Below, in pieces: positions 11,837 through 30,482 of a stretch of 64,000 nucleotides of DNA. Under the pieces are notes generated by a model. That model ran no database searches, had not been told where the DNA came from, and was given only the letters and a program-made list of their open reading frames with translations. The stretch comes from Magnetococcales bacterium (GTDB taxonomy: Bacteria; Pseudomonadota; Magnetococcia; Magnetococcales; Magnetaquicoccaceae): NCBI GenBank assembly GCA_015234115.1, contig JADFWP010000010.1:1-64000 (forward strand), read 5' to 3'. Made by a program: the position numbers and the translations under genes. Positions within the stretch are counted from its first letter, which is position 1. Every line of letters begins with the position of its first letter.

Positions 11837-11975
11837 ATTTCATACCCATGCCAGGAGCGACATTTGAGAGGACTTTGACCGCGACCATGTCGAGTTCATG
11901 ATAAGTCAAGCAGGCGCTTATGGCAACCTTGCATGGATTCTTTGGTCAACGGATGAACCGTTCATGGTGTGATTA

Positions 11976-12108
11976 TTGAAAGAAAAGAGGGGGTCTGGGG
12001 GATTCATTCCCCAGGGTTTTGATTTTAAAATAAAAACATTTTAAAAATTCTTTGTTTAAAGTCAAAACCCTGGGGGATGAATCCCCCAGGCCCCCTCTTT
12101 GTTTTCAA
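11976..12108. repeat. Nested palindromic element, full copy (copy b)
   Basis: Two long inverted arms of about 55 bp surround an AT-rich centre (TTTTAAAATAAAAACATTTT). Each arm carries its own small hairpin, CTGGGGGATTCATTCCCCAG on the left and CTGGGGGATGAATCCCCCAG on the right. The ends are TTGAAAGAAAA and GTTTTCAA. This copy lies between divergent genes, so it is not only a terminator here. Confidence 0.85.
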
Positions 12109-12216
12109 AAGTTGCTCTCTTGCACCGGGTGCGCGCTCTGGCAGTTCACGACCGCACAAAGTTCATTGCATCGATCCGGGCAATGGGGTTAACTGAATGG
12201 CCTCTGGAGAACCAGG

Positions 12217-12286: not shown

Positions 12287-14083
12287 ATGCTTCAGGAAAT
12301 TCTCGCGGAACTGGATGCGGATCGCTCCATCAATGCCTACCAGCGGGCTGCCAATCGGCTCAAGGATGTCACGGGTGCGTTGCGGGCGGTAAAAATACAA
12401 TATTTATCATCATTTGTTTTGCAGCCCTATCTGCCGTCGCTGATCACCGAGGCGGCGCGTCAGGGGTTGAATGCCCAATGTCACATCGGCCCCCTGAATA
12501 CCCTGATTCAGGAATTGATCCACCCGGCCAGCGAGACCGTGACCGGGGGCTACGACGTGGTGTTCCTGATGAGCCGTTTGCAGGATGCCGCACCCGGTCT
12601 GGCGCTCCATTTTCTGACGTTGACGCCGGAAGCGGTGGAAGAGCAGATACAAAATCTGGTGGCGGAGTGGGTGCAGGCGCTGCAACAGTTCCGTGCGCGC
12701 TGCGGCAGTGTGGTGATTGTCCACTCTTTCGCCCAGCCTTGCTATCCATTGCTGGGGATTCTGGAGGGGATGAATCCGGACTCCCAGACGGTGGCCATTC
12801 AGCGTCTCAACGCGCTGCTCGCCCAGGGAATCCGTACCATTCCGGATGTTTATCTGCTGGATTTTGATCGGGTCTGTGCCCAGGTCGGTCATGCCAACTG
12901 CCGGGACGACAAATTCTGGTATCTGGCCAGGGCGCCGCTTTCACCGGTGTTGATGCCGGAACTGGCCCGCACCCAGGCGACCTTCCTGAATGTGCTTCAT
13001 GGCACGGTGCGCAAATGTCTGGTGCTGGATCTGGACAATACCTTGTGGGGCGGCGTCATCGGCGAGGAGGGTATGGCGGGCATTGCCATCGGCCACTCGG
13101 GGCAGGGATTGGTGTTCCGGGAGTTTCAGGAGACCATTCTGGAATTTTTCCATCGGGGCGTGCTGTTGGCCATTGCCAGCAAGAACAATGCGGCAGATGC
13201 CCTGGCCGTGTTGCGCGACCATCCGGATATGCTGTTGCGGGAGCACCATTTTGCCGCCATGCGCATCCATTGGCAACCCAAACCCGAGAGCGTGGTTGCC
13301 ATCGCCCGGGAACTCAACATCGGTCTGGATGCCTTGGTCTTTCTGGATGATTCTCCCCAGGAGCGCGCCTTGATGCGTGCGGCCCGGCCCGAGGTGCTGA
13401 CCCCGGAACTGCCTGCCGATCCCATGGGTTATGCCAACCTGCTCAGACAGTTGGGGGTGTTCGACAAACTCACCCTGACCCGTGAGGATCGCCAGAGAGG
13501 CGCCATGTATCAGCAGCAGGCGCAACGCGCCAGACTGCGTTCCGAAGCAACTTCCATGACCGATTTTTATCGCGGTCTGGCCATGCGGGCCACGGTCGAA
13601 CCGGTCGATACCCTGTCATTCCCCCGCGCTCTGGATCTGGTGCACAAGACCAACCAGTTCAATCTGACCACGCGGCGCCATGATGAACAGACCCTGCGCG
13701 CCTTTCTGGAGGATGACCGCTGTGGATTTTTCGTCTTGCGGGTGATGGACAAATTTGGCGATAATGGTCTGGTCGGAGTCGCCATCCTGCGGATTCTGGA
13801 GCATCACGCCGAATTGGATTCCTTTTTGTTGAGCTGCCGGGTGATCGGTCGAACGGTGGAAACGGCCTTTTTGTCGCATCTGCTGGCGTGGGTGGGCACA
13901 CGAGGAGTCACACGCCTGCTGGCCGATTACATCCCAACCCCGAAAAATCAACCGGTCGCCCAATTTCTGCCCGACCATGGTTTCACCCGGTTGACCGACA
14001 CTCCGGAAGGGAGTCGCTGGTCATTGGATTTGGCTCAGGCAGGTGTGACCTGGCCCGACTACATCGCACGAGGATCTTCATGA
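12287..14083 (+). CDS. FkbH-like HAD phosphatase/acyl-ACP loading enzyme
   Basis: 598 residues. The N-terminal 240 residues resemble the FkbH SGNH-like part (VVIVHSFAQPCYPLLGILEG). The HAD core is clear at about residue 243: KCLVLDLDNTLWGGVIGEEG carries the catalytic DxD (D-L-D). IASKNNAADALAVL and LNIGLDALVFLDDSPQER complete the fold. The C-terminal 150 residues form a GNAT-like part (LVHKTNQFNLTTRR, LDSFLLSCRVIGRTVE). FkbH enzymes of antibiotic pathways dephosphorylate 1,3-bisphosphoglycerate and load a glyceryl unit on an acyl carrier protein. The next gene is exactly such a carrier and overlaps it by 4 bp. The start at 12287 is chosen over 12197 because the extra 30 residues look non-coding. 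Confidence 0.85.
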   Translation: MLQEILAELDADRSINAYQRAANRLKDVTGALRAVKIQYLSSFVLQPYLPSLITEAARQGLNAQCHIGPLNTLIQELIHPASETVTGGYDVVFLMSRLQDAAPGLALHFLTLTPEAVEEQIQNLVAEWVQALQQFRARCGSVVIVHSFAQPCYPLLGILEGMNPDSQTVAIQRLNALLAQGIRTIPDVYLLDFDRVCAQVGHANCRDDKFWYLARAPLSPVLMPELARTQATFLNVLHGTVRKCLVLDLDNTLWGGVIGEEGMAGIAIGHSGQGLVFREFQETILEFFHRGVLLAIASKNNAADALAVLRDHPDMLLREHHFAAMRIHWQPKPESVVAIARELNIGLDALVFLDDSPQERALMRAARPEVLTPELPADPMGYANLLRQLGVFDKLTLTREDRQRGAMYQQQAQRARLRSEATSMTDFYRGLAMRATVEPVDTLSFPRALDLVHKTNQFNLTTRRHDEQTLRAFLEDDRCGFFVLRVMDKFGDNGLVGVAILRILEHHAELDSFLLSCRVIGRTVETAFLSHLLAWVGTRGVTRLLADYIPTPKNQPVAQFLPDHGFTRLTDTPEGSRWSLDLAQAGVTWPDYIARGSS

Positions 14084-14331
14084 ATCATTTTGCGCACGAT
14101 GGACGCCTGTTTCAGGTGATTGCGGGTGTGTTGGGTCAAACCGTGGAACAGGTCGCCCGGTTGGACGCCAGCCAGGCGGACACGAGCGAACAGAGTTGGG
14201 ATTCCTTGCAACACATCAACATCATTCTTGGGGTCGAGGCCGAATTCGGCATTCGTTTTTCACTCCTGGAAGCGGTCGATCTCAAGACAATTCCCCTGAT
14301 CCGCGCCAAACTGGCCACCCTGCTTCACTGA
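14080..14331 (+). CDS. Acyl carrier protein
   Basis: 83 residues. WDSLQHINIILGVEAEFGIR holds the DSL motif whose Ser carries 4'-phosphopantetheine, followed by the usual helix III region (SLLEAVDLKTIPLIRAKL). It overlaps fkbH by ATGA and precedes the SGNH-like gene by 10 bp. It is therefore a dedicated carrier, not the fatty-acid AcpP (there is no fab gene nearby). Expected cargo is the unit loaded by FkbH. Confidence 0.88.
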   Translation: MNHFAHDGRLFQVIAGVLGQTVEQVARLDASQADTSEQSWDSLQHINIILGVEAEFGIRFSLLEAVDLKTIPLIRAKLATLLH

Positions 14332-14341
14332 ATTCAGCCGC

Positions 14342-15472
14342 ATGACCTCTCGAACGCACACCGGACCCGTGGGAATGGACAGGAATCAAGCGCCGAAGCC
14401 GGGCCATGTGTTCGGTTCGCGTCTGGCGCTGATCGTGATTGCCCTGCTGATCTTCGTGCCGCCCGCCTTGATCCGGGAGCGCGCGGTCACTTCCCGGTTT
14501 GACGACACCCATCTCAAGCAGATTATCGAGTTGCAACCCGATCATGTCCTGATCGGCACCTCCCCGCTGTTGTCGCGCATGGATCCGGAGCAGTGGAGTC
14601 GGCTGCGTGTCGGAGAGAAGATTTATATTCTTGGTGAGCTGGGCAGCATGAGTTCTTTGTGGTATTTATGGTTCAAGAACAGTCTGATCGCTTCCCAGAT
14701 CAAACCTAAAACGGTTTTTTTCTTTTTCCGCGATACCGAGTTGACCAATCCGGAAGATGAGACGAATTCGTTGACCAACAAGGCCAAAATCGCCAGCCAC
14801 CGGTTGCCGGATGATCACCGGTTTGATGTTATCGTCAACGCCAACAAAAGCATGGTGGACCGGTTGCGCAATGGCTTGTTCGATCTGTACCCGATTCAGG
14901 AGAACTGGAGAAAGCAGGGGATCTGGCTGTTGGGCAGCGCGGGCTTTTTTTTCAGCGAACCGCGCTATCGGGCGTTTTTGTGGAAACGCCTGGTGCATCC
15001 GGAACAGATCACCCCGGCCGAAAGTTTCTCCTTTTTCCGGGAGCGGTTCACCTTTCAGGAACGCATGACTGCGGAGTTGTTCCATCCAGGCAACCAGCGG
15101 GTTTCCAGAAAACGTCTTGATCCGGAAGACCAACTTTTTTCGGTCCGTTATCTTTTCGATGACCGGCTGCCCCGTTCGTTTCTGCCGGAAATGATCCGTC
15201 TGGGAAAGGCGGCCTCCTTGAAGATGTTTTTCATCCATATGGAACACAGGCCAGCGGAGGATGGTCGCCCTGTGGCCTATCATAAATGGCTGGCAGGTTA
15301 CATGGATAAATTGAAGAATTATTTGCAGCAGGAAGGGGTCGGTTTTTATGACTTCAACAACGATCCAGCCATGAGATCAGACATGTATCTGGATGGTGGA
15401 CATGTCAAGCCGGAATACAAGGCGTTCTATACGGAACACTTTATCCAGAAACTTGCGGAGTATTTGCCGTGA
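14342..15472 (+). CDS. Membrane-anchored SGNH-like protein (DltD/AlgJ-like role)
   Basis: 376 residues. One N-terminal transmembrane helix (about residues 28-45, LALIVIALLIFVPPALI) leaves the rest extracytoplasmic. Block I of the SGNH fold looks like HVLIGTSPLLSRMDPEQW (Ser near residue 73). Near the C-terminus MYLDGGHVKPEYKAFYTEHF carries the Asp-x-x-His pair. This architecture matches extracytoplasmic partners of MBOAT acyltransferases such as DltD, AlgJ and AlgX. It overlaps the MBOAT gene by GTGA. I do not recognise a named family, so the role is inferred from motifs and neighbours. ATG 14375 is an alternative start. Confidence 0.65.
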   Translation: MTSRTHTGPVGMDRNQAPKPGHVFGSRLALIVIALLIFVPPALIRERAVTSRFDDTHLKQIIELQPDHVLIGTSPLLSRMDPEQWSRLRVGEKIYILGELGSMSSLWYLWFKNSLIASQIKPKTVFFFFRDTELTNPEDETNSLTNKAKIASHRLPDDHRFDVIVNANKSMVDRLRNGLFDLYPIQENWRKQGIWLLGSAGFFFSEPRYRAFLWKRLVHPEQITPAESFSFFRERFTFQERMTAELFHPGNQRVSRKRLDPEDQLFSVRYLFDDRLPRSFLPEMIRLGKAASLKMFFIHMEHRPAEDGRPVAYHKWLAGYMDKLKNYLQQEGVGFYDFNNDPAMRSDMYLDGGHVKPEYKAFYTEHFIQKLAEYLP

Positions 15473-16887
15473 TTTTCCACAGTCTGGATTTCTTGATTTT
15501 TTTCGTGCTGGTGCTGACAGTCTACTGGAGGTTGGAGCGCAAGTGGCAGAATTATTTTCTGTTGCTGGTCAGCTATTTTTTTTATGGATATGTTCATTTC
15601 TGGTTTCTGTATCTGATCTTTGCCTCGACACTGGTCGATTATTTCTGCGGTTTGGCCATCGCCCGCTTTCCCGAGAAGAAAAAATACGTCCTCTGGTTGA
15701 GCATTTCGGTCAATCTGACCTTTCTTGGGTTTTTCAAGTATTTCGGTTTCTTCGTCGATAACGTGGCCGCACTGCTGGTGCTGTTGGGGCTGCCGAGTTT
15801 CACCAATCATTTGGATATTTTCCTGCCTGTCGGGATTTCGTTCTATACCTTCCAGTCGATGAGTTATATTATCGATGTTTATGCCGGACGGCTCAAGGCC
15901 AGAGAGAATTTTTTCGATTTTGCCTTGTTCGTGGTCTTTTTTCCGCAACTGGTGGCCGGTCCCATCGAGCGGGCGGTTCATCTGTTGCCACAGGTCGAAA
16001 AGGAACGCACCCTCACCTGGCCGGAAGCCCGCGAGGCTCTGTTTCTGCTGGTTTGGGGATTCTTCAAGAAACTGGTCATTGCCGACAATGTGGCCTTCAT
16101 TGTCAACAAATTGTTCATTCTGGAGCATACCACCTTTTACCTGGCATGGGTCGGGGTGTTTGCCTTTGGTGTGCAGGTCTATGCCGATTTTTCCGCGTAT
16201 ACCGATATTGCCAGAGGTTCGGCGCGCATGCTTGGTTTCACGCTTTCCCAGAACTTCAACCACCCCTTCATCTCGGCCTCGCCGGCTGAATACTGGAAAC
16301 GGTGGCACATTTCTCTGTCATCCTACATTCAGGACTATATTTTTCTGCCCCTTTTTTTCTCGTTGCGCGCGCGCGGAACCCGCTACAGCATTGTCGTCAG
16401 TCTGCTGATCACCTTTTTCCTGGTTGGATTGTGGCATGGAGCCAACTGGAATTTCATTATTTTTGGTCTGTATCATGGCCTGCTGGTGATTCTGTATGGC
16501 TGGTGCAAGAACATCACCCCGATCGGCATTCGGGAGAATCGCTGGCTGAAACCGTTTCAGATCCTGTTGATGTTCGTGCTGGCCCATATCGGCTTCATGT
16601 TGTTCAGGGAGACGGAGCTTTCTTACATTCTGCGTCTGTTGTCGCTGTCCCCCTTCGCGGCCACAACCGAGTTGCAACAGCAATCCGCATGGTTTCTGTT
16701 CGGGCAGGCGGCGTTCCTCTCTTTGCCCTTGTGGATTCACACTTTTTACGATCATGTTCAGGAACGTCTTTTCGTCCGGGATTCCGGAGTGCGCATCGTC
16801 TTGCACACCCTGGTTTCCCTGTCGCTTTTTCTGGCCATTCTCGCATTGCGTGGCGACTCCACGGAGTTCATCTATTTTCAGTTCTGA
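15469..16887 (+). CDS. MBOAT-family membrane O-acyltransferase (AlgI/DltB-like)
   Basis: 472 residues with about 11 transmembrane helices. Family hallmarks are FFKYFGFFVDN, LPVGISFYTFQSMSYIIDVY, FFPQLVAGPIERA, NHPF...SPAEYWKRWHISLS and the catalytic His in LVGLWHGANWNFIIFG (about residue 325). AlgI acetylates alginate and DltB D-alanylates teichoic acid. Here the upstream carrier protein and FkbH suggest the donor is a carrier-bound hydroxyacyl unit. The start is GTG at 15469, overlapping the previous stop. It is convergent with the sulfatase-fold gene (14 bp between stops). Confidence 0.92.
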   Translation: MIFHSLDFLIFFVLVLTVYWRLERKWQNYFLLLVSYFFYGYVHFWFLYLIFASTLVDYFCGLAIARFPEKKKYVLWLSISVNLTFLGFFKYFGFFVDNVAALLVLLGLPSFTNHLDIFLPVGISFYTFQSMSYIIDVYAGRLKARENFFDFALFVVFFPQLVAGPIERAVHLLPQVEKERTLTWPEAREALFLLVWGFFKKLVIADNVAFIVNKLFILEHTTFYLAWVGVFAFGVQVYADFSAYTDIARGSARMLGFTLSQNFNHPFISASPAEYWKRWHISLSSYIQDYIFLPLFFSLRARGTRYSIVVSLLITFFLVGLWHGANWNFIIFGLYHGLLVILYGWCKNITPIGIRENRWLKPFQILLMFVLAHIGFMLFRETELSYILRLLSLSPFAATTELQQQSAWFLFGQAAFLSLPLWIHTFYDHVQERLFVRDSGVRIVLHTLVSLSLFLAILALRGDSTEFIYFQF

Positions 16888-16901: not shown

Positions 16902-18905
16902 TCACGGATGTCCGGTCACCTGTTGCATGAAGCGGTTTTCCATCTGATAGATGTTGCGCAGCAGTTCCAGTGCCTGGGCATCGCTCCAGCCCTCTTTCAG
17001 GTAAAGACGGTCATCGGGGATCGTCATCACGGGAGAGGTGGTGCAGAGTTCATTGAAGTATTCGCATGAGACAAAGGTCTGACCCGTGTGGAATCCATCC
17101 ACGCCGATGTAGTCCCTGCCAAAGAAAAACAGGGTGCGATCATTGAGCTTTGGATCCCACAGCAGACTGCCGTGGGTCTGTGCGGGTTGGGCGGACAAAC
17201 CCAGCAGGTGTTGCAATGATGGTCCGATGTCGATATGCGAGGTCGGCTGGGTCAGTTCGATGCGTTGCGTGAAAGTTTGCGGCGCGAAGATCATCAGCGG
17301 GACATGGAAGGTATAATCATCGATCCGTCCGGTCTTCAGGGCCGGGTCTTCGGTGGTCAGGCGGATGCCATGATCGGCGGTCACCACCACAATGGTCTGT
17401 TCCAGTCTGCCGGTATTGGCCAGTTCGTCGATCCATTCGTTCAGCCAGGAGAGTTGCAGGGTGGCGAGGTCGCGGCCTCGTTCACAGATCGGTTGGTTGG
17501 GTGGTCGGACCTCCTTCCAGGGGCCGTGGCCGAGTTGCGGCATGAAGGCATGCACGAACCGTTGTCCTTGCTGCTGCGCAAGACGGGTATCCCGTTGCAA
17601 GGTCTGCCATGCGGCCAGATCACGCGTGACCTGGGTATGGAGACGTTGCCGGGCCGATTCGTCGGAGGTCATGGCATTCAGGGAGCGTTCCAATTGGGTC
17701 GTCACCTGCGGATCGTTCAGGGTTTCCGGATGTTCGGAGGCAAAATACTGCGGATCCGCACCGAATGCCTGAAACATGTCGAAATCGTTTTCAAACCCCT
17801 CCCGGCTTGGTTTGTACAGAGCAAAACGGTAACCGGCCTGCTTGAGCGGATGCACCCAGCCTACCGGGCTGGCCTGTCGGGTCTGTTGCAACAGGGTTTT
17901 GCGGCCATTGGGATAGAGCGAGCCGAAGATGGAAAACATGGCCGCACTGGTATAAGGATAGGTCGTGTAATGGCGCGTTCCGAAGAGGGATCGTTTGGCA
18001 AGTCGGCGTAATGCCGGGAAATCTTGAATGTTTTGCGCCAGTTCCACGCAGCGTTCCGGACCGGTTTCCAGGATGAACAGCAGGATATCGCTGTTTTTTT
18101 CGGTGCCGAACCAGGCAGACTGGTCGTTGAATCCAGGGGCATGGGTCAGATTGCGATAGGTTTGATCCAGGCGGGATGGATCCAGGTGGCGATAAGTCCC
18201 TGCGGAGAGGTCCGAGGTGATCAAAGCGCGGATCATGTTTTCGGGAATGCTGCGGTATTGGGCGCGCAACGGAAACGAGAAACGGTAGCCCGCGACGATC
18301 AGCACCAGATAGGTTGCGATGATCACCAGCCAAACCCACCAGAGGCGTCGATACCAGAGGATTTGCAGTGGTGCGGCGCGACGGGTGAACCAGACGAGCA
18401 GTCCGCCCGTGGCCAGGATGGTTCCGATCAGAATGCCAAGCTTTTGCAGACTGCCCGGACTGACATACTGTGGAATGAATTCGGGATTCTGGATGCCCCA
18501 GGTCATGGCTTCCCATAACAGATCGAAGCTCAGGAATTTGCGGGCATTGCCCAGGCTGATCAGACCGACGTAATACCAGGCGATCAAAAGGATCCCGGTG
18601 ATCAGCAGGATGCGGATGCGTTTTGCCTCGCTTCGGAGCCACATCAGGCCGAACAGCATCAACAGTGGCAGCAGCACGCCACCGATCAGCAGGTCTTCAC
18701 GATAGAGAGAGAGTCGTTCCAATTCTGTGAAGAGATGGTCTTGTTCCAGTGCCAGGAAGCGGGTCAGCACGCAATAGCCGTTGACCGTGCCCAGCCAGAG
18801 CGATTTGATGAAGATCGGAAACAGGCCCAACAGGCTCACAAGCAGGCTGCCACCGACAGCGCTGCCATGTCGCAACAACCAGGAGTGCGATGGGATCGGT
18901 TTCAT
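16902..18905 (-). CDS. LtaS-like sulfatase-fold membrane enzyme
   Basis: 667 residues. The first about 230 contain five or six hydrophobic helices. The extracytoplasmic alkaline-phosphatase-like domain follows: SDILLFILETGPERC (metal Glu), YTTYPYTSAAMFSIFGSLYP (likely Thr nucleophile), HAFMPQLGHGPW, and VVVTADHGIRLT (Asp/His metal ligands), then FHVPLMIFAP. This pattern is that of lipoteichoic acid synthase and phosphoethanolamine transferases, not formylglycine sulfatases, since there is no CxPxR. It probably adds a phospho-alcohol group to a surface glycan or lipid. The ATG at 18905 is chosen; the longer frame starts inside palindromic copy c. Confidence 0.8.
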   Translation of the reverse strand: MKPIPSHSWLLRHGSAVGGSLLVSLLGLFPIFIKSLWLGTVNGYCVLTRFLALEQDHLFTELERLSLYREDLLIGGVLLPLLMLFGLMWLRSEAKRIRILLITGILLIAWYYVGLISLGNARKFLSFDLLWEAMTWGIQNPEFIPQYVSPGSLQKLGILIGTILATGGLLVWFTRRAAPLQILWYRRLWWVWLVIIATYLVLIVAGYRFSFPLRAQYRSIPENMIRALITSDLSAGTYRHLDPSRLDQTYRNLTHAPGFNDQSAWFGTEKNSDILLFILETGPERCVELAQNIQDFPALRRLAKRSLFGTRHYTTYPYTSAAMFSIFGSLYPNGRKTLLQQTRQASPVGWVHPLKQAGYRFALYKPSREGFENDFDMFQAFGADPQYFASEHPETLNDPQVTTQLERSLNAMTSDESARQRLHTQVTRDLAAWQTLQRDTRLAQQQGQRFVHAFMPQLGHGPWKEVRPPNQPICERGRDLATLQLSWLNEWIDELANTGRLEQTIVVVTADHGIRLTTEDPALKTGRIDDYTFHVPLMIFAPQTFTQRIELTQPTSHIDIGPSLQHLLGLSAQPAQTHGSLLWDPKLNDRTLFFFGRDYIGVDGFHTGQTFVSCEYFNELCTTSPVMTIPDDRLYLKEGWSDAQALELLRNIYQMENRFMQQVTGHP

Positions 18906-18970
18906 GACCGTGGGGTTCCTTTGATTGCTGGAGGATCCTGTCGGTTGGCGGGATCGATGGGCACCATTAT

Positions 18971-19100
18971 GGAAAGAAAAGAGAGGGTCTGGGAGATTCA
19001 TCTCCCAGGGTTTTGACTTTAAAAACAAAACATAATTAGAATTTTTTGTTTAAAGTCAAAACCCTGGGGGAAGAATCCCCCAGACCCTCTCTTTCTTTTC
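18971..19100. repeat. Nested palindromic element, full copy (copy c)
   Basis: Arms GGAAAGAAAAGAGAGGGTCT and its complement at the right end, each with an inner hairpin (CTGGGAGATTCATCTCCCAG on the left and CTGGGGGAAGAATCCCCCAG on the right). Both left-hairpin strands changed together (GGGAGA/TCTCCC), a compensatory change that keeps the pairing. It separates the hlyD stop from the sulfatase-fold start. Confidence 0.85.
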
Positions 19101-19123
19101 AAAAGTGTGCATCGCAAAACAGG

Positions 19124-20545
19124 CTACCGTTCCTTCAAACTCTCGTCTGCCATGCTGGTCAGGGTGTAGATGAAATACTCGATCAGTTTGCGCGAACCGA
19201 CTTTGATGTTGGCGGCCAGGGTCATGCCGCGCAGCAGGCGGGCGCCTTCGGGGAGGTGGTCCAGCTTGGTCTTGGTCAGCTTGACCCGGCCAATGTGAAA
19301 TGCACCTGCCCCGTTGCGGGCGTCGCCGCTTTGGAACGACTCCTGACTGACAAACTGCAACTCCCCTTCCAGAATGCCATGCCGTTGATAGGGAAAGGCA
19401 TTGATCTTCAATACCACCCGGTCGCCGCGCCGCACATAGCCCACATCGCCTGAATCGAGCATGATCTCCGCGATCAGCACCGCATCCCCTGGCACGATGG
19501 AAATCAACAGCTCCGCCGGACTCAACACCGAACCCTCGGCCCGTTTCGCCACCTCCAGCACCATCCCGTCCACCGGCGAGGTCATGGTCTCCATGTCGCT
19601 CAACCGTTTGGCCTTGTTCAACATTTCGTTCAACTTGGCCAACTCGTTCCGGGTGCTGATCAACTGATCCATCAGCGTGCGGGTCCATTGGTCCATGAAA
19701 GCCTGGCGTTCGGCCTTTTTCGCGTCCAGATTGTGTTGCAGTTCCAGCAGGCGGTTCCCGGCCTCCTGATAGGTCTGCTCGGTGCGTACCCGGTTGGCCT
19801 TCGAGTCCTGATAATGCAGTTGACTGCCTGTGCCGCTCTTTTGCAGCGTATCACGCATCCCCTCGACCTCTTTCGAGATTTTCAGCAATGTGGCCAGCGA
19901 GGCGCGGTCATCCTCCGTGGCGCGCAGACTCGCCCGGATCCTTTGCATCTCCTCGTCGAACATCTTCAGGCGCGACTGGTATTCGGCCTGGCGTCGTTGC
20001 AGCAGGGTCCATTGCAGTTGTTCATCGACATTCGGATTGGCCCCGATCTCGAACGGCGTGTTGTGGATTTCGTGTTCCAGTCGTTGTCCTTGCACCTGCA
20101 ACGCTTGTTGCTGCCCCTGCAACGAAACCAGATCCGCCTGCGAAAAGGTGGCGTCGAAGGTGGCCAGCACCTGGCCCTTGCGCACCGTGTCTCCCGCCTT
20201 CACCTTCAATTCCCGCAGAATCGCCCGGTCCATGGGTTGGATCTGCAAAGGTGGATTCTCGGTGGTCAGGCGACCGCCGGCGGTCACGATCATATCCACT
20301 TCCAGCACCGACGCGATGATGCCCAGCGTCGCCACCAGTCCGATCACCAGGTAAAACACCGACATCAGCAAAAAAGACGGGTTTTCCACGATGATCACAT
20401 CGATGCCGACCTGGAACGGGATGGCATCCGGCACCACGCGTTCGTAGTATCGGTTCCACACGCGCGCCCACATCCGGCGCCACGCCCCGATCAGGCGTTT
20501 GAACAGGCCGGGCGTTGGGGGGTGTTCGGTTGCATTGTCCTTCAT
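19124..20545 (-). CDS. HlyD-family type I secretion membrane-fusion protein
   Basis: 473 residues. One transmembrane helix at about residues 55-80 (FLLMSVFYLVIGLVATLGII). A split biotinyl-lipoyl domain follows (IQPMDRAILRELKVKAGDTV, VLATFDAT), then a long alpha-helical hairpin (about residues 135-340) and a beta-barrel (SPVDGMVLEVAKRAEGSVLS, GDRVVLKINAFPYQRHG). It ends with a short helix at the C-terminus. It links the ABC transporter to an outer-membrane TolC-like channel, which is not in this window. The ATG at 20545 is chosen since the longer frame comes from repeat d. The ABC partner is directly upstream. Confidence 0.92.
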   Translation of the reverse strand: MKDNATEHPPTPGLFKRLIGAWRRMWARVWNRYYERVVPDAIPFQVGIDVIIVENPSFLLMSVFYLVIGLVATLGIIASVLEVDMIVTAGGRLTTENPPLQIQPMDRAILRELKVKAGDTVRKGQVLATFDATFSQADLVSLQGQQQALQVQGQRLEHEIHNTPFEIGANPNVDEQLQWTLLQRRQAEYQSRLKMFDEEMQRIRASLRATEDDRASLATLLKISKEVEGMRDTLQKSGTGSQLHYQDSKANRVRTEQTYQEAGNRLLELQHNLDAKKAERQAFMDQWTRTLMDQLISTRNELAKLNEMLNKAKRLSDMETMTSPVDGMVLEVAKRAEGSVLSPAELLISIVPGDAVLIAEIMLDSGDVGYVRRGDRVVLKINAFPYQRHGILEGELQFVSQESFQSGDARNGAGAFHIGRVKLTKTKLDHLPEGARLLRGMTLAANIKVGSRKLIEYFIYTLTSMADESLKER

Positions 20546-20589
20546 GGGAGTCCTTGCCAAATTAAACCGCGTCCATTTCGAGCTGCAAA

Positions 20590-20810
20590 CCATTGAAAAA
20601 AAAAGAAGGGGTCTGGGGGATTCTTCCCCCAGGGTTTTGACTTTGACGTTGACTTTAAACAAAAAATTTTTAGAATGTTTTGCTTTGCAAAATTAAAACA
20701 TTTTAAAATTTTTTTGTTTAAAGTCAAAATATTTTAAAAATTTTTTGTTTAAAGTCAAAACCAAAACCCTGGGGGATGAATCCCCCAGGCCCCCTCTTTT
20801 TTTTCAATGG
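20590..20810. repeat. Nested palindromic element with expanded centre (copy d)
   Basis: The outer ends CCATTGAAAA and TTTTCAATGG are perfect inverses. Arms carry CTGGGGGATTCTTCCCCCAG and CTGGGGGATGAATCCCCCAG. The AT-rich centre is enlarged to about 220 bp total by partial duplications of the TTTTTGTTTAAAGTCAAAA word (20710-20762). It lies between the ABC transporter stop and the hlyD start, so it may uncouple the two genes or act as an attenuator. Confidence 0.85.
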
Positions 20811-20866
20811 TTTGCCCTGAATCGTCAACCGCATGCAAAATCAATACCGTTGACCGACCTCATGCG

Positions 20867-23029
20867 TCAGACCACTTCGTGTTGGGAAAAATTGGTCTGC
20901 TGATCCCACAAATGACGGTAAATCTCACACCGCTCCAACAACTCGGCATGCGGCGCGAAATCCACTACCTCGCCTTTGTCAAGCACCAGAATCGCATCCG
21001 TGCCCACCAGCGAAGAGAGCCGGTGCGATACGATGATCATGGTCCGACCCTTGGAAATCGTGTTCAAACTCTGCCGGATGATCGCCTCGCTCTCCGGATC
21101 CAGGGCGCTGGTCGCTTCGTCGAAAATCAATAAACGCGGACTCAACAACAACGCACGGGCAATCGCGATCCGCTGACGTTGACCCCCCGAAAAGTTCGAA
21201 GCGTTTTCCTCCACCCAGGTCTCGTAAGAGTGCGGCAGACGATCGATGAATTCATCGGCCCCGGCCATGCGGGCCGCGTCGATCACCTCCAACAACGTCG
21301 CCTCCGGACGACCGGCGGCAATGTTCTCGCGGATCGTCCCCCGGAACAGAATGTTGTCCTGCAACACCACCCCGATGCTGCGCCGCAAATGAGGCAGATC
21401 GAAATGACGAATGTCATGACCATTCAAGTGGATCAAACCCTCCTGGGCCGTGTGGATCCCCTGAATCAAACGGGTCACGGTGGTCTTGCCCGAACCGGAA
21501 CGACCCACCACCCCGATCATCTGACCCTCTTCCACCCGGAACGTGACCTGCTTGAGCGCCGGCAAGGTCGAACGCTCATAACGGAAGGTCACATTGTTGA
21601 ACTCCATCGACCCGGTGATCGGCATGCGAATGCCCCGCTGATTCGGATCCCGTTCCGGCGGATGGTTCATCACTTCACCCAGCATGCGCACCGCCAATGC
21701 GGTCTGCTGGTATTCGTTGATCAAACCCACGATCTGCACCAGCGGACCCGAAACCCGACCCGACAGCATGTTGAACGCCACCAGCGAACCGATGCTCATC
21801 GAATTGTTGAACACCTCGATCGCACCCACGCCGATGATGGCGATCTGCATGCCGGCCTGCAACGTGGTGGTCAGCACCGAGGCCTTGATCCCGAATCCCC
21901 CCACCCGCGCCCGGTTCAGAATCGAAACCGCCACCTTGCGATCCCAGGCCGCCATGCGCAACGGTTCCAGCGCCATCGATTTCACCGCCCGCATGCCGTG
22001 GATCGTCTCCACCAGATCGGTCTGCCGCATCCCTTCGGCATTGTAGAGACCCTCCAGATATTTCCGGAAGGTCGGCAGCATCACCGCGATCACAATGGCG
22101 ATCGCCAGCGTGAATGCCAGCACCACCACCGTCAGCAATCCGCTGTACATGGTCAGTCCCACCAGATAGATCGGCAGGATCGCGGCATCCAGCAACGTGT
22201 GAAACAACGAACCGGTCAGAAAATTGCGCACCACCTCGGTCTGTTGCATGTGGCGAATCAAAATGCCGGTGGTGTGACTCTCGAAAAACGGCATCGGCAG
22301 ATGCAATAAATGATGAAACGAACGCGACAGCAGTTTCGCATCGATCTTGTTGGTCGCCACCAGCATCATGTATTGACGAACATACTGAAACAGTCCGTCA
22401 AATACCACCACCATGGCCAGAATCAACATCAATGTGATCAACGACTGATAGCTCTGATGCGGCACCACACGGTCGATCATGATGTTGAAACACATCGGCA
22501 TCGCCAGACCGAGCAGACTTGACAGAATCGCCGCGATCGCCACATTGCGCAACAGTTTGCGCTGGGCGAAAATCTCCGGCATGAACCAGTTCAAACCAAA
22601 AGGACGACGCTCGAAGGTGAATTCATGCTCGCGCTTGCACAGAACCAGATTGCCGCTCCAGTCCGCCTCGAACGCCTGACGGCTCAACAGCCGGGGACCG
22701 GTCTGCTCGTAACGGGGATCGAGCACCGTGGCGCTCGCCTCGCCATCGCTGGCCAGCGTCACCCGACTCACCAGCAGCCAATGACCGCCCCGCGTCTCGG
22801 CCATCACCGGATAGGCGCCTCCCAATCCCGCCAGATCCTTCCATTTGCGCCGGGTCAGCAACGCCCCTTTCAGACCGGTCTCCTGCATCAGCCGCAACAT
22901 CGAGCCCACGATGTCCGCCTCTCTGGCTCCGAGCAACTGCTCCGGGGTGACATCCACCCCATGATGCCGGCAGATCAAAAACAAACAACGCAATGCGGAT
23001 AAAAACGGGGACATCGCTGAATCGGTCAA
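20867..23029 (-). CDS. Type I secretion ABC transporter with inactive C39-like domain
   Basis: 720 residues. Residues 1-130 form a C39 peptidase-like domain in which the catalytic Cys position is Ser (FLSALRC), while HWLLVSRV and VLDPRYEQTG remain. It is therefore a substrate-binding CLD, not a protease, as in HlyB. Six transmembrane helices (about 155-430) and an ATPase follow: GRSGSGKTT (Walker A), NFSGGQRQRIAIARAL (signature), LLIFDEATSALD (Walker B) and IVSHRLSSL (H-loop). CLD transporters export RTX-type proteins with C-terminal signals. A second start is ATG 23014. Divergent from the giant GT41 gene by 166 bp. Confidence 0.93.
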   Translation of the reverse strand: MTDSAMSPFLSALRCLFLICRHHGVDVTPEQLLGAREADIVGSMLRLMQETGLKGALLTRRKWKDLAGLGGAYPVMAETRGGHWLLVSRVTLASDGEASATVLDPRYEQTGPRLLSRQAFEADWSGNLVLCKREHEFTFERRPFGLNWFMPEIFAQRKLLRNVAIAAILSSLLGLAMPMCFNIMIDRVVPHQSYQSLITLMLILAMVVVFDGLFQYVRQYMMLVATNKIDAKLLSRSFHHLLHLPMPFFESHTTGILIRHMQQTEVVRNFLTGSLFHTLLDAAILPIYLVGLTMYSGLLTVVVLAFTLAIAIVIAVMLPTFRKYLEGLYNAEGMRQTDLVETIHGMRAVKSMALEPLRMAAWDRKVAVSILNRARVGGFGIKASVLTTTLQAGMQIAIIGVGAIEVFNNSMSIGSLVAFNMLSGRVSGPLVQIVGLINEYQQTALAVRMLGEVMNHPPERDPNQRGIRMPITGSMEFNNVTFRYERSTLPALKQVTFRVEEGQMIGVVGRSGSGKTTVTRLIQGIHTAQEGLIHLNGHDIRHFDLPHLRRSIGVVLQDNILFRGTIRENIAAGRPEATLLEVIDAARMAGADEFIDRLPHSYETWVEENASNFSGGQRQRIAIARALLLSPRLLIFDEATSALDPESEAIIRQSLNTISKGRTMIIVSHRLSSLVGTDAILVLDKGEVVDFAPHAELLERCEIYRHLWDQQTNFSQHEVV

Positions 23030-23195
23030 AGGTGATTTTCAGGGGCGTGCAACCGCTCCCCCCTCCAAAAAAAGGACGTGTACCCACAAAACGAATTCCC
23101 ACCAGAAAGACAATCTGGTAGCATGAACGGTTACGATCAAGATCAAGGTGCGATCAATACCCGCTTCCCAGCCTCTCCTCCCAAAGGTTACGGTC

Positions 23196-26100
23196 ATGAA
23201 ATCAGGAAAGTCAAGAAACCGGATCCCGGCCGCTGCGCCATCTTCTTTGACCGGCCAGGTTCAACAGGCCCTGGAACACCATCAGGCCGGACGCCTGCCA
23301 GAGGCCGAAGCGATCTACCGGCAGGTGCTCGCCCAACAGCCCCGCCATCAGGATGCTCTGAACCTCCTGGGTTTTCTGCTCCACCAGCGCGGCGCACGCG
23401 CCGAAGCGATCGAATACATCCAAAAAGCCATCGAGGTCGATCCGAAACAGGCCCTGTTTCACAACAACCTCGGCATCGTGCTCCAGAACGACGGCCAGCA
23501 CGACGCGGCCATCGCCGCCTACAAAAAGGCTTTGAAAATCGATCCCCGATTCCATGCCGCCCTCAGCAACCTCGGCACCCTGTATCAGGCCCAGGGCCGG
23601 ATCGACGAGGCCATCGATTATCAGAAACGAGCTTTGGAGCAGTTTCCCGAGGCGTTCGAGGCCCATGCCAGCCTGGGCAACGTCTACGGCGAACAGCGCC
23701 GCTTCGCCGAGGCCATCGCCTGCTACGAACAAGCCATCGCGATCAAACCCGATTACGTCAACGCCATGCACAACCTAGCCTATGTCCTCCAGCAGCAGGA
23801 ACGACACCAGGAGGCGATCCCCTGGCTGCTCAAGGCCAAGGAACTGCGCCCGGACTATCTCGACGCCTACAACTGCCTGGGCAATGTCTATCAGGATCTG
23901 GGCCGCTGGCACGAGGCCGTGGAGTGCTACCAGCAGGCCCTGGCCATCGATCCGAATTATCATGTGGCACTTTGCAACCTGGGCAACGTGATGTGCGATC
24001 AGGGACGCTTCGAAGAGTCCATCGCCTGGCACCAGAAGGCCCTGGCCATCAAGCCCGATCTCCATCAATCCTACACCCACATGGGCAATGCCCTGCAAAT
24101 CCAGAACCATATCCAGGAATCCATCGCCTGCTACAAAAAAGCCCTGGAGATTCAACCCGGTGATCCCACGGCTCTGGAAAATCTCGGTGTGGCCTACAAT
24201 GCGGTGAGCGATCTGGCCGGCGCCATCGACTGCAACCGTCAACTTCTCGTCCACAAGGGCGATGATCCCAATCTGCTCGCCACGCTGCTCAACCTGTTGA
24301 AACAGACCTGCGACTGGCAGGAGTGCCCGGCACTCTTCGAGCGCATCATGTCGCTGTTCCACGCGGGCAAAAGACTGGTCAACCCCTTTGTCTTCCTGAC
24401 CCTGGCGACCACCCCGGAAGAACAGAAAATCTGCGCCCTGGAATACATGACGCGCCGCTATCCGGCCCGCCGCAACCTGGCCGCCCAGCCCACCCACGAT
24501 CCCCATCCGGCCCGGATCCGCATCGGGTATCTTTCGTGCGATTTTCTCAACCATGCCACCGCGATCCTGATGGCGGAAATGGTCAAGCTCCACAACCGCG
24601 ACCGCTTCGAGATCATCCTTTATTCTTATGGCTACGACGATGGCCGTGAGATGCGGCAACGGCTGATCGAAGCCAGCGACCGCTTCGTCGATCTGCGCCC
24701 CCTCGATCACGAAAGCGCGGCCCGCCGGATCCATGCAGATGGCGTGCACATTCTGGTGGAACTCAAAGGCTTCACCAACGGCGCCCGCCTGGAGATCGCC
24801 AATCAGCGGCCCGCGCCCCTCCAGGTGAACTGGCTCGGCTACCCCGGCACCATGGGCGGCGACCATATCGACTACGTGATCGCCGATCCGTTCATCATTC
24901 CCCATGGCCAGGAACACCATTACAGCGAAAAAGTGGTGCGCATGCCCCACTGCTACCAGCCCAACGACCGGCTGCGCGCCCTGCCGGAGGCCGGCGCCTC
25001 CCGCGCCGCATACGGCCTGCCGGAACAGGGGCTGATCTTTTCGAGCTTCAACCAGACCTACAAGATCACCCCGGAGATCTTCGGCGCCTGGATGGAAATC
25101 CTGCGCCAGACCCCGGGCAGCATCCTCTGGCTGCTCGAATCCAACGACCTGGTGGCCGCCAATCTGCGCCGCGAGGCGAGCGCACACGGCATCGATCCGG
25201 CCCGTCTGATCTTCGCGCCGAAACTGGCGGTCGCCGAACATCTCGCCCGTTATCATCTGGTGGATCTGGTGCTCGACACCTATCCGGTCACCTCGCATAC
25301 CACCGCCAGCGACGCCCTCTGGATCGGCTGCCCGCTGGTGACCATTGCCGGGGATACCTTCGTGTCGCGGGTGGCCGGCAGTCTGCTCCACACCCTGGAC
25401 TCCCCGGAACTGGTCACCGACTCCCTGGAGGCCTATACCGCCCGCGCCCTGGAACTGGCCCATGACCCGGCCCGCCTCCAGACGATCCGCACCCGGCTGC
25501 AAACCAATCGCGCCACGACTCCTCTCTTCGATACCCCGCGCTTCACCCGCGACCTGGAGGCGTGCTACGAAGCGATCTGGCAACGCCACGAGGCCGGACT
25601 GGCCCCGGACCATATCGACATTCCCCCCTCTTTCGCCACTCCGGAGCCTCTCATGTCGCAACCCCAATCCCAACCCCGACCCGTCGCCGCCCAACCGACC
25701 ACTCCCGCCGCGCCCGCCACTCCTGCCGCTCCCGCCACTCCTGCCGTTCCCGCCGTGGCCGGCCTGAGCGTGACTCCCATCGCGCTGGTCGTTCCTGCGT
25801 CCGTTGCGCCGGAGCCGGTCACCCTCTCCATCTGCATCACCACCGAAACCGGACGGGAAGCGCTCGCCAACACCCTGGAACAACTCCGGGAATGGATCGC
25901 CGCAGAGACCCGCGCCATCGAAATCGTGATCGTCGAGCTGCCCACCGATCCGCAACCGGGTCCGCTCCCGGACGAATGGCGGACGACCTTCCCCGCGTTG
26001 CGTCAGGTGATCCTGCCGTTGCCGCTGAGTGGTCCGGCCCTGGTCCAGGCCGCGCTGCGTCAGGGGCGCGGCACCTTTGTGGTGCATCAATCCTGTGGCG

Positions 26101-27041
26101 ATCTGCTGATCCCGGACGCGCTGCGCGCCGAACTCGCCTTTCTGGAACAGCATCCGGAAATCGCGGTCTCGCATGCGCCGTGGCATCTCTGGAACAGCGT
26201 TACCAATGCCGGCATGGGACTCTATTACACCCTGCCGGAGGCCGCCACCTTTGAGCGCGCCCAAGGTCCGGCCCTGTTCAATTTCGTGCTTCAGAACCGG
26301 ATTTTCCCCGAGGTGGCGATCTGGCGCACTGCCACGCTGGCCAAGGTCTCCTTTGTCCTGCCGGCCACCGCCACCGCGTTCGTCACCCTGTTCCGCACCC
26401 TGCCGCATGGAGCGGTACGGTTTCAGCCGCAACCGTTCCTGGTCGCTCTGTTCCGGGAGGGCAACCCGCTCGACACCCTCGACGCCTGCCGCGCCGGCCT
26501 GGAGATCGCTGCCGGTCTGGCCATGGCCTCGGTCGGCATGAGCGATTTCGATCCCGGCAACCGGGAGGTGGTGCTGGATCAGATCAATGATTTTCTGGTA
26601 CAAAGGCTGTGGTTTGCCGCCACTCTGGCCCAGGCGCGCCAGGACCATCTCACCGCGCTCTCCTGCCTGAAACGGGCGCTGCTCTGGAGCCGGGAACCCG
26701 AAACCCGCCAACGGATCCTGGAACTGGAACCCATCGTTGCCACCAATGCCGCCTATCAGGCGTTGCTGGAACGGTTCATGACCCAACCCGGCGCCCTGCG
26801 GCTGGTCTGTTGCGATTTGACCAATCCCGAGGTGATCCTGGCCAGCCTGCGTCAGATCGCCCCGAACCTGCCGGTCGAAATCCGCGATCTCTCCACCGCC
26901 CAGAGCGCCCCGGATCGCGCCACCTGTCTCTACCTCACCGAATCCGAACCCACTCGTCAGTTCCTGCTCAACAGCGGACTGCTTCCAGGACAGGTGGTCG
27001 GCACCACCGACCTGCTCGCCATGTTCCGGATTGCGGGGTAA
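23196..27041 (+). CDS. Giant TPR-GT41-GT2 fusion glycosyltransferase
   Basis: 1281 residues. Residues about 20-370 hold nine to ten TPRs of 34 residues (AEAIEYIQKAIEVDPKQALF type). The GT41 (OGT/SPINDLY) domain spans about 430-805: IRIGYLSCDFLNHATAILM (base His), NWLGYPGTMGGDHIDYVIAD, FNQTYKITPEIFGAWMEIL (Lys) and SHTTASDALWIGCPLV. A Pro/Ala linker (about 815-860) leads to a GT2-like region: LSICITTETGREALANTLEQ, GRGTFVVHQSCGDLLIP and LAFLEQHPEIAVS. The last 170 residues are unassigned. GT41 enzymes glycosylate Ser/Thr (or Asn) of proteins in the cytoplasm. Placement opposite the exporter suggests modification of its cargo. Start 23196 has AAAGG upstream; GTG 23148 is less likely. Confidence 0.88.
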   Translation: MKSGKSRNRIPAAAPSSLTGQVQQALEHHQAGRLPEAEAIYRQVLAQQPRHQDALNLLGFLLHQRGARAEAIEYIQKAIEVDPKQALFHNNLGIVLQNDGQHDAAIAAYKKALKIDPRFHAALSNLGTLYQAQGRIDEAIDYQKRALEQFPEAFEAHASLGNVYGEQRRFAEAIACYEQAIAIKPDYVNAMHNLAYVLQQQERHQEAIPWLLKAKELRPDYLDAYNCLGNVYQDLGRWHEAVECYQQALAIDPNYHVALCNLGNVMCDQGRFEESIAWHQKALAIKPDLHQSYTHMGNALQIQNHIQESIACYKKALEIQPGDPTALENLGVAYNAVSDLAGAIDCNRQLLVHKGDDPNLLATLLNLLKQTCDWQECPALFERIMSLFHAGKRLVNPFVFLTLATTPEEQKICALEYMTRRYPARRNLAAQPTHDPHPARIRIGYLSCDFLNHATAILMAEMVKLHNRDRFEIILYSYGYDDGREMRQRLIEASDRFVDLRPLDHESAARRIHADGVHILVELKGFTNGARLEIANQRPAPLQVNWLGYPGTMGGDHIDYVIADPFIIPHGQEHHYSEKVVRMPHCYQPNDRLRALPEAGASRAAYGLPEQGLIFSSFNQTYKITPEIFGAWMEILRQTPGSILWLLESNDLVAANLRREASAHGIDPARLIFAPKLAVAEHLARYHLVDLVLDTYPVTSHTTASDALWIGCPLVTIAGDTFVSRVAGSLLHTLDSPELVTDSLEAYTARALELAHDPARLQTIRTRLQTNRATTPLFDTPRFTRDLEACYEAIWQRHEAGLAPDHIDIPPSFATPEPLMSQPQSQPRPVAAQPTTPAAPATPAAPATPAVPAVAGLSVTPIALVVPASVAPEPVTLSICITTETGREALANTLEQLREWIAAETRAIEIVIVELPTDPQPGPLPDEWRTTFPALRQVILPLPLSGPALVQAALRQGRGTFVVHQSCGDLLIPDALRAELAFLEQHPEIAVSHAPWHLWNSVTNAGMGLYYTLPEAATFERAQGPALFNFVLQNRIFPEVAIWRTATLAKVSFVLPATATAFVTLFRTLPHGAVRFQPQPFLVALFREGNPLDTLDACRAGLEIAAGLAMASVGMSDFDPGNREVVLDQINDFLVQRLWFAATLAQARQDHLTALSCLKRALLWSREPETRQRILELEPIVATNAAYQALLERFMTQPGALRLVCCDLTNPEVILASLRQIAPNLPVEIRDLSTAQSAPDRATCLYLTESEPTRQFLLNSGLLPGQVVGTTDLLAMFRIAG

Positions 27042-27062
27042 GGGCAACTCTTTACCAGAGGC

Positions 27063-27208
27063 ACACTTTTGAAAAAAAAGAGGGGGTCCGGGGGATTCGT
27101 CCCCCAGGGGTTTGATTTTAAACAGAAACTTTTCTAAAGATTTTTTGTTTAAAGTCAAAACCCTGGGGGAGGAATCCCCCAGACCCCTTCTTTATTTTTA
27201 AAAGTGTC
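27063..27208. repeat. Nested palindromic element, full copy (copy e)
   Basis: ACACTTTTGAAAA at the left end pairs with TTTTTAAAAGTGT at the right end. Inner hairpins are CCGGGGGATTCGTCCCCCAG and CTGGGGGAGGAATCCCCCAG. It lies 22 bp after the stop of the giant glycosyltransferase and could be its terminator. A following 157-bp stretch to the methyltransferase start shows no gene. Confidence 0.85.
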
Positions 27209-27365
27209 ACCATGACCGCTTCGTGCCACACCGCTCCCAACCCGGTTGCGGTTTGAGCAAAAAATGCTGTCTCCCCCTCTTGCGAACTTCCAGAACGGGC
27301 ATTACTTGGTATTGCGAACCAAGTCTCTTCCTTTCATTGCACTTCCTGATGCGAGGATCGAACCC

Positions 27366-28055
27366 ATGCCAAATCAACTGGATATCGCCTTACAAAACAT
27401 CGGACCGGTTGTACCGCCCGTCTTCGGATTGCACTGCGGATGTGGTGGAAACTGGAGACATAACTGGCTGAATACAGACTTGGAAACTCATATTGGAAAC
27501 AATGGTGTCCAGACAGAACCTGGCATGATCTTTTCGCCTGTCGGTTATCAACGCAATGAGTTCTACTTTCTGCAACATAATGCCCTGACCCCCTTCCCTC
27601 TGCCAGACAATTGCTTTAATAATTGCTACAGTGAACACTTCATCGAACATCTGAACCGCGTACAAGGATTAATATTCCTGAAAGAAATGCATCGACTGCT
27701 GCGTCCCAACGGAGTGCTGCGCATCAGCACCCCGGATCTGATCCAACACGCAGAAGTGCTCCTGCAACCGGACCGACCGGAATTTGCCCATAATGTCGCC
27801 TTTCTCAACGGACGCGTACCGGAGATGTTTACCCGCAACCGGGCATTCATGTTCAACCAGCTTTTCTATTTCTGGGGCCACCAGTGGATCTATGACTTCG
27901 AGGATCTTGCCCTGCTGATCGAACAGGCCGGCTTCCCTGCATCCTCGATTCAACGGTGCGCATACCGGCAAGGAAAAATCGCGGATCTGGAAAATCTCGA
28001 TCAGGAAGAACGTCAAACGCTCAATCTCTACGTCGAAGCCGTCAAGGCCCCCTGA
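27366..28055 (+). CDS. SAM-dependent methyltransferase-like protein
   Basis: 229 residues. The core is of the Methyltransf_11 type: LHCGCGGNWRHNWLNTDLE (degenerate motif I), LTPFPLPDNCFNNCYSEHFI, then the typical EMHRLLRPNGVLRISTPDL and a C-terminal LIEQAGFPASSIQ. It most likely methylates a sugar or a lipid-linked glycan, as do relatives in surface-polysaccharide loci. The ATG at 27366 is chosen; GTG/ATG options upstream add 40 residues with a poor profile. GC is lower than in the preceding gene. The next 980 bp hold only remnants. Confidence 0.75.
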   Translation: MPNQLDIALQNIGPVVPPVFGLHCGCGGNWRHNWLNTDLETHIGNNGVQTEPGMIFSPVGYQRNEFYFLQHNALTPFPLPDNCFNNCYSEHFIEHLNRVQGLIFLKEMHRLLRPNGVLRISTPDLIQHAEVLLQPDRPEFAHNVAFLNGRVPEMFTRNRAFMFNQLFYFWGHQWIYDFEDLALLIEQAGFPASSIQRCAYRQGKIADLENLDQEERQTLNLYVEAVKAP

Positions 28056-28105
28056 CCTCACGATCCGGTGTCCAGGCTTGCGCCATTCCATCCGGACGCA
28101 CCAAC

Positions 28106-28162
28106 CCGGACTTTCTTCTTGTTTTTGACGTACAGTATTGATATTGATCATATAATGATCAA
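28106..28162. repeat. Half copy of the 41-bp-arm palindrome
   Basis: CGGACTTTCTTCTTGTTTTT followed by GTACAGTATTGATATTGATC and ATATAATGATCAA closely matches the left arm plus loop of the perfect palindrome at 29758-29850. It diverges after ATGATCAA. With that palindrome it brackets the RTX remnant and the acetyltransferase gene. Confidence 0.6.
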
Positions 28163-28189
28163 ATCTCACTGCATACGACTGACTATGAG

Positions 28190-28600
28190 TCAAGGAGTGA
28201 CTGCGAGCAGGCGGAATACTTCCTCCTGGAATGCTGCGATTCGGGAGAACCTGTGGAACGGGACGTTGGCGGCGGCCTCCCATTGGGCACGCACGGTATT
28301 GCGGGTCAGGGTTGCCGCCGCTTCCGGAGAGGGTATCGTTGCCCGAGGTGCCGGTGAGCGTCTGATTGGCCGGTTCGAGCGCGATGGCCGTTTGGGTGAC
28401 GGCAGCGGCTTCCGTGTCGTCCAAGGTGAGGGTGCGGGTCTGATACCCCCGACTGGAAATCTCCAGGGTTTCATGGTGACGCCTGCCAACCCGATCAGAT
28501 CCATGCTGCTGTAGACCATCCCCTGGAGAATGCCCGGCAGTTCGTTGATCAGATTGAGGTACGGTTGAAACGCCAAGGGGTGGAATTTGCAAGTTGTCTA
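28190..28600 (-). pseudogene. Remnant of an RTX-like secreted protein
   Basis: Read leftwards, protein-like sequence switches frame twice. First comes PYLNLINELPGILQGMVYSS and MDLIGLAGVTMK, then (shifted) LEISSRGYQTRTLTLDD and ALEPANQTLTGTSGNDTLSGSGG. The last is an RTX-type GGxGxDxL-like nonapeptide. Finally (shifted again) RAQWEAAANVPFHRFSRIAA leads to a stop at 28190. No frame is open throughout, so this is a decayed fragment. Such repeats are typical of type I secretion cargo, which fits the HlyD/ABC genes 5-8 kb away. The rest of 28056-29041 shows no gene. Confidence 0.5.
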
Positions 28601-30479: not shown

Positions 30480-30482
30480 GGT

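Follow-up and report, generated by a model that had tools for sequence, protein, structure and literature searches.

A candidate envelope acylation cassette in a Magnetococcales genome

Our analysis concerns a 64,000-nucleotide stretch of DNA from a Magnetococcales bacterium (GenBank assembly GCA_015234115.1, contig JADFWP010000010.1, positions 1 to 64,000; hereafter "the window"). Positions 12287-16887 of its forward strand carry a tandem of four genes that encode an FkbH protein, an acyl carrier protein (ACP), a membrane-anchored protein and an MBOAT acyltransferase (Table 1). The genes are tightly joined: those for FkbH and the ACP overlap by 4 bp (ATGA), a 10-bp gap separates the ACP gene from the third gene, and the third and MBOAT genes again overlap by 4 bp (GTGA). 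The initial annotation, made from the sequence alone, had described this arrangement, and all its open reading frames and joins were found in the sequence. It had also proposed that the cassette follows the logic of the Dlt system, with FkbH as the loading enzyme.

Table 1. Features of the cassette and its surroundings, in window coordinates.
Feature	Position	Strand	Description
FkbH-type loader	12287..14083	+	598 aa; FkbH_N region, HAD-IIIC domain, GNAT-like C-terminal part
Stand-alone acyl carrier protein	14080..14331	+	83 aa; phosphopantetheine site in SWDSLQHINII
Predicted membrane-anchored SGNH-fold transferase, DltD-like	14342..15472	+	376 aa; Ser74 in GTS, Asp351/His354 in DGGH
MBOAT acyltransferase, DltB-like core and two extra C-terminal helices	15469..16887	+	472 aa; His323 in GLWHGA
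FIYFQF tail and stop, FXYXXF acyl-shuttle hexapeptide	16867..16887	+	MBOAT C-terminus; Tyr469
PEP-CTERM/XrtA-system glycosyltransferase, TIGR04063	10580..11836	-	562 bits (cutoff 442); divergent upstream neighbour
Putative exosortase A-associated O-glycosylation ligase/polymerase, TIGR03097	9126..10583	-	445 bits (cutoff 188)
Large sulfatase/YejM-like membrane protein, HlyD, peptidase-C39 ABC transporter	16902-23029		Downstream of the cassette

The MBOAT protein and its fused acyl-shuttle motif

The last protein of the cassette was confirmed as an MBOAT acyltransferase. It scored 63 bits against PF03062 (cutoff 27) and 156 bits against the DltB equivalog TIGR04091 (cutoff 375), that is, related to DltB and below the equivalog level. 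DltB was the sole match of its profile in the PDB (E 5e-36) and the best Foldseek match of its AlphaFold 2 (AF2) model (predicted local distance difference test score, pLDDT, 91), with a template modelling (TM) score of 0.65-0.74. In this model, a DltB-like core is followed by two more helices and then by the tail. The tail itself, FIYFQF, had been overlooked in the first reading and fits the acyl-shuttle motif FXYXXF; His323, F467, Y469 and F472 are invariant in 36 MBOAT homologues. In the Dlt system, the tyrosine of this motif lies in a separate microprotein, DltX, and carries D-alanine from DltB to DltD; PatA and MBOATs like it instead bear the motif themselves, on two additional helices, and in PatA its tyrosine is acylated (PMC12148441). 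The sequence and fold features tested for the MBOAT-SGNH acyltransferase class were found here, namely the catalytic His and C-terminal FXYXXF of the MBOAT, and a paired protein with Ser, Asp-x-x-His, a predicted SGNH fold and an N-terminal membrane helix.

Short MBOATs of DltB size, with no C-terminal FXYXXF, occur beside or near FkbH-ACP genes at three other loci (L056 6519-12317, L058 1848-5206 and L049 5193-6380). A separate DltX-like peptide was looked for beside these three MBOATs and none was found; the loci were left out of the full-cassette counts given below.

The predicted SGNH transferase

Profile searches placed the third protein in no confident sequence family (DUF1574, E 0.01). 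Since sequence searches against the PDB also gave nothing useful, with no sequence-level match to DltD, its assignment comes from fold comparison only. An AF2 model was built from an alignment of 32 homologues; inputs for structure prediction comprised the window sequences and those of related loci, and excluded relatives from the wider genome search. The model (pLDDT 85, predicted TM score 0.75) has an N-terminal membrane helix at residues 23-47. Its Foldseek matches in the PDB were generic SGNH hydrolases and the DltD entries 6pfx, 6o93, 7dxm and 3bma (Enterococcus faecium, E. faecalis, S. pneumoniae and one further entry), the latter with probabilities of 0.96-1.00 and a global TM score of only 0.3-0.4. 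Because the global score is modest, we describe the protein as a predicted SGNH fold of DltD-like architecture and not as a DltD orthologue. Gly72-x-Ser74 and Asp351-x-x-His354 are invariant across eight cassette homologues. The membrane-anchored SGNH-like protein with GTS and D-x-x-H motifs that had been proposed at first therefore stands, and the suggested comparison of its predicted structure with DltD yielded the SGNH fold, with DltD among the matches.

The predicted FkbH loader and its carrier protein

The FkbH gene could start as early as 12197, while the start at 12287 yields a protein of the same length as its relative at L031. In profile searches the protein scored 297 bits against TIGR01686 (cutoff 146.65), and its nearest solved relative is BF1531 (3slr, E 5e-42). 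Aligned with the other FkbH proteins that we collected, it keeps all the family motifs: DLDNTLWGG, IASKN and LDDSPQER in the HAD-IIIC domain, and NQFNLTT and SCRVIGR in the GNAT-like C-terminal part. Domain and motifs (TIGR01686; DxDxT, SKN, DDSP, NQFNLTT and SCRV) agree in assigning it to the FkbH family, in line with the earlier call of an FkbH-like loading enzyme. A homologous ACP adjoins FkbH in the cassette loci and in most other FkbH loci.

The same genome has a second FkbH-ACP pair (L004 8519-11499, G000:C77), located behind a gene resembling aminoglycoside 3-N-acetyltransferase, AAC(3) (PF02522). This suggests that glyceryl-ACP has another use, perhaps to N-acylate an amino sugar. Scanning genome contigs with the FkbH protein alone returned no match.

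Conservation of the cassette

Conservation was assessed in a sample of 61 genomes. The cassette occurs in identical order in 5 of 11 genomes of the genus (the window, L030, L031, L032 and L033, the last interrupted by a contig end). A second Magnetococcales family has the order SGNH-MBOAT-ACP-FkbH in four of five sampled genomes (L034, L036, L037, and the genome that contains both L035 and L057), and L049 is a looser version. Synteny beyond the window genome, which the initial annotation had named as a check, is hence recurrent within the genus and, in another order, in a second family. Because the gene set is kept well beyond the window genome, a chance neighbourhood was ruled out as an explanation of the four genes. 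Among the 80 MBOATs nearest to that of the window across 85,000 species, an SGNH partner was common, and FkbH and ACP accompanied the pair in six loci only, all from Magnetococcales.

Looser analogues, in which more distant MBOATs are coupled to FkbH and ACP on plasmids, were found in three Alphaproteobacteria. Sinorhizobium meliloti pSymB carries genes for VOC, an MBOAT ending in FLYQGF, an SGNH-like protein, ACP and FkbH; Rhodobacteraceae SC52 has ACP, FkbH, an MBOAT ending in FIYFNF, an SGNH-like protein and VOC; and in Tistrella mobilis, an SGNH-like protein and an MBOAT ending in FIYAGF face ACP and FkbH. The partner proteins have GxS and DxxH correctly placed and a weak profile similarity to the window family (E 2e-4 to 0.15), and are SGNH-like by motif and position only. 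An MBOAT also lies beside FkbH and ACP in another family of the phylum (L179).

Several further observations were made at these loci. The S. meliloti FkbH gene is split over two reading frames in strain 1021 (L062 5359-7421, pSymB) and intact in ml46 (L074 8842-10728), and the adjacent SGNH-like gene bears the annotation "TonB-dependent receptor", probably in error. A VOC/glyoxalase-fold gene accompanies FkbH-ACP genes in three Alphaproteobacteria (L063 10356-10784, L074 4849-5316 and L066 8433-8900). L047, L048 and L053 contain MBOAT-SGNH pairs with an ACP nearby and no FkbH within the fetched stretch. At L046 (65-5105), FkbH-ACP, a MaoC/SDR fusion gene and an SGNH gene follow in succession, and the acyl cargo might be modified through the fusion.

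One predicted membrane relay, two FkbH lineages

The gene trees of the cassette components disagree. The MBOATs of both Magnetococcales families form one clade (Shimodaira-Hasegawa-like approximate likelihood ratio test, SH-aLRT, 100), as do their SGNH partners (SH-aLRT 99). FkbH of the two families falls in two lineages, one with a non-MBOAT FkbH of the order and the other with the alphaproteobacterial cassettes. A single FkbH clade was rejected (log-likelihood difference 250; approximately unbiased test, p 2.8e-5); the constrained group was named before this test but after the free tree had been seen, so the p-value is a guide only, while the likelihood gap is large. Since the MBOAT and SGNH proteins are monophyletic and FkbH comes from two lineages, the trees indicate that one MBOAT-SGNH relay is joined to two different FkbH lineages, and that an FkbH-ACP supply has been coupled to it at least twice. 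A mismatch of this kind would follow if FkbH and ACP provided the relay with its donor, whereas a chance neighbourhood would not predict it. It is our strongest argument for a functional link of FkbH-ACP with the relay.

Comparison with known acylation systems

The cassette shares with Dlt (DltA-DltB-DltC-DltD-DltX) a loader, a dedicated carrier, an MBOAT, a membrane-anchored SGNH protein and an FXYXXF shuttle, and DltB and DltD are, by structure, the closest solved envelope-acylation relatives of its MBOAT and SGNH protein. It differs in several respects: the Dlt loader is an adenylation enzyme whereas FkbH belongs to another superfamily; the Dlt shuttle is the separate peptide DltX whereas here it is part of the MBOAT itself, borne on two additional helices; and the host is Gram-negative, with a probable glyceryl cargo in place of D-alanine on teichoic acids. 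A search for DltA (TIGR01734) across the 77% complete genome gave sub-cutoff matches only (best 252 of 560 bits), most of them in one reading frame resembling a non-ribosomal peptide synthetase (NRPS). A true Dlt system was rejected, since no DltA was found in the incomplete genome, FkbH and the Dlt loader differ in superfamily, and a fused tail stands in for DltX; as far as its sequences tell, the cassette resembles Dlt in how it works without being one. The NRPS-like frame spans 4770 aa and has several adenylation-domain matches (G000:C74 10117-22377).

PatA-PatB, AlgI-AlgJ and other pairs fed by acyl-CoA are likewise Gram-negative and combine an MBOAT bearing a C-terminal FXYXXF with a separate SGNH protein. 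MBOAT-SGNH systems, Dlt excepted, have been described as carrier-free and as drawing on acyl-CoA (PMC12148441), whereas the window cassette encodes both an ACP and a loader. By every sequence feature tested the cassette belongs to the MBOAT-SGNH envelope acyltransferases, and its fused-shuttle MBOAT with dedicated ACP and loader falls outside both described classes. FkbH/OzmB pathways that form glyceryl-ACP (FK520, tetronates, methoxymalonyl-ACP) similarly pair FkbH, with all family motifs, and a stand-alone ACP; in contrast to them, the window cassette has no adjacent FkbG/FkbI/FkbK-like genes for oxidation or methylation and no ketosynthase, and its partners are membrane acyltransferases. 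The combination of FkbH and ACP with MBOAT-SGNH seems to be undescribed: no such cassette appeared in the literature searched on FkbH/HAD-IIIC with MBOAT, O-antigen or polysaccharide, a search that most subscription papers fell outside. In PMC13122637, where FkbH and MBOAT occur together, the locus is an NRPS cluster whose MBOAT acylates a sugar.

A proposed glyceryl relay

We propose that the four genes form a Dlt-type envelope acylation machine that is loaded with glyceryl by FkbH and esterifies a surface glycan, and we put the probability of this at roughly 0.6. Following the chemistry of these families, FkbH would take the acyl group of D-1,3-bisphosphoglycerate, strip the phosphates and pass glyceryl to the phosphopantetheine arm of the ACP. 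Glyceryl-ACP would be received by the MBOAT at the cytoplasmic face, and the glyceryl group would cross by way of the MBOAT funnel to reach Tyr469, in the protein's own FIYFQF tail, at the periplasmic face. From the tail it would pass to Ser74 of the membrane-anchored SGNH protein; the glycan that this protein would esterify is most likely the exosortase A-associated exopolysaccharide whose genes adjoin the cassette. On paper, the parts list of predicted loader, carrier, membrane pump, fused shuttle and outer transferase is complete. The Dlt-like logic with FkbH as loader, first suggested from gene order and motifs, has thus gained from the full FkbH domain, the DltB-like MBOAT and predicted DltD-like SGNH fold, the recurrent synteny and the exchange of FkbH lineages.

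Unmodified glyceryl is the likeliest cargo. Family searches of the neighbouring genes found no dehydrogenase, methyltransferase, ketosynthase or other glyceryl-modifying enzyme beside the window cassette, and with no FkbG/FkbI/FkbK-like partner there, glyceryl as such is the simplest choice. The described FkbH activity is the formation of glyceryl from 1,3-bisphosphoglycerate (PMC3679948), which also speaks against the same relay placing another cargo on the glycan, such as D-lactyl or a glyceryl modified by an enzyme encoded elsewhere. That version is unlikely, in our view: the choice of FkbH substrate cannot be read from sequence, and among the alphaproteobacterial cassettes a VOC/glyoxalase-fold gene accompanies two and a methyltransferase lies close to one, but no gene of either type lies beside the window cassette.

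Several points weigh against a glyceryl-loaded relay. FkbH identity is no proof of glyceryl, as an FkbH domain in the bryostatin pathway is believed to take lactate. The ACP, annotated at first as a dedicated carrier with a DSL motif, scores weakly against the general model (PF00550, E 0.009), yet its W-DSL site is present. The exopolysaccharide neighbourhood is kept within the genus, and the window neighbours were not found beside the second-family cassettes. The genome is incomplete. Finally, the closest MBOAT-SGNH pairs beyond Magnetococcales, in Acidobacteriota and Verrucomicrobiota, occur without FkbH or ACP; they are presumably fed by acyl-CoA, so the window pair could be too. The cassette would then consist of two independent modules, an MBOAT-SGNH pair that, in the manner of AlgI-AlgJ or PatA-PatB, uses acetyl-CoA to O-acetylate a polysaccharide, and an FkbH-ACP pair that feeds glyceryl to a cytoplasmic glycan or amino-sugar N-acyltransferase, as the second FkbH-ACP pair behind the AAC(3)-like gene might. 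We regard such a division as rather improbable, given that the genes overlap, that they recur together across classes and with no fewer than two gene orders, that FkbH lineages were exchanged with the same MBOAT-SGNH clade, and that family searches recognised no other acyltransferase beside the window cassette.

Of the known MBOAT-SGNH systems, only Dlt receives its acyl groups from a carrier loaded through adenylation; the others take them from acyl-CoA. We are inclined, if only just, to see in the cassette a third kind of donor for acylating bacterial surface polymers across the membrane, in which 1,3-bisphosphoglycerate would give carrier-bound glyceryl, then MBOAT-SGNH export and glyceryl esters on a glycan. 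Different FkbH lineages would have been plugged in on more than one occasion, both in Magnetococcales and among Alphaproteobacteria, for example S. meliloti. If so, the carrier would be loaded from a glycolytic acyl phosphate with no ATP at the loading step, making the relay modular at its donor end, and FkbH would gain a role outside natural-product synthesis. The relay would also be a possible source of the glyceryl substituents on bacterial polysaccharides; native gellan, for example, carries glyceryl. The S. meliloti copy makes the model directly testable in a tractable organism.

Genomic neighbourhood and the likely acceptor

Directly upstream of the cassette, and divergent from it, lie the TIGR04063 and TIGR03097 genes, which are exosortase A-associated exopolysaccharide genes. 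L030/L075 and L032/L076 both retain the glycosyltransferase next to the cassette, and L032/L076 retains the ligase as well. The neighbourhood alone points to an exosortase A-associated exopolysaccharide as the most likely acceptor. There is a small chance that the relay instead acylates lipopolysaccharide, peptidoglycan or a glycoprotein exported through the downstream type I secretion genes. The sulfatase/YejM-like, HlyD and ABC transporter genes would fit such a target, as would TPR proteins weakly resembling N-glucosyltransferase and rmlA/rmlB further downstream. Against it, the conserved neighbour in L030 and L032 is the exosortase-type glycosyltransferase, and the downstream genes gave no conserved match.

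The stretch at 23148-42768, with several large TPR proteins of weak similarity to N-glucosyltransferase and with rmlA and rmlB, suggests a protein glycosylation region downstream of the cassette. Three palindromic elements resembling miniature inverted-repeat transposable elements lie between genes around the cassette (11972-12112, 18966-19106 and 20594-20812); the first two are about 140 bp long, with 66-nt arms and a CTGGGGGATTCATCCCCCAG-type core.

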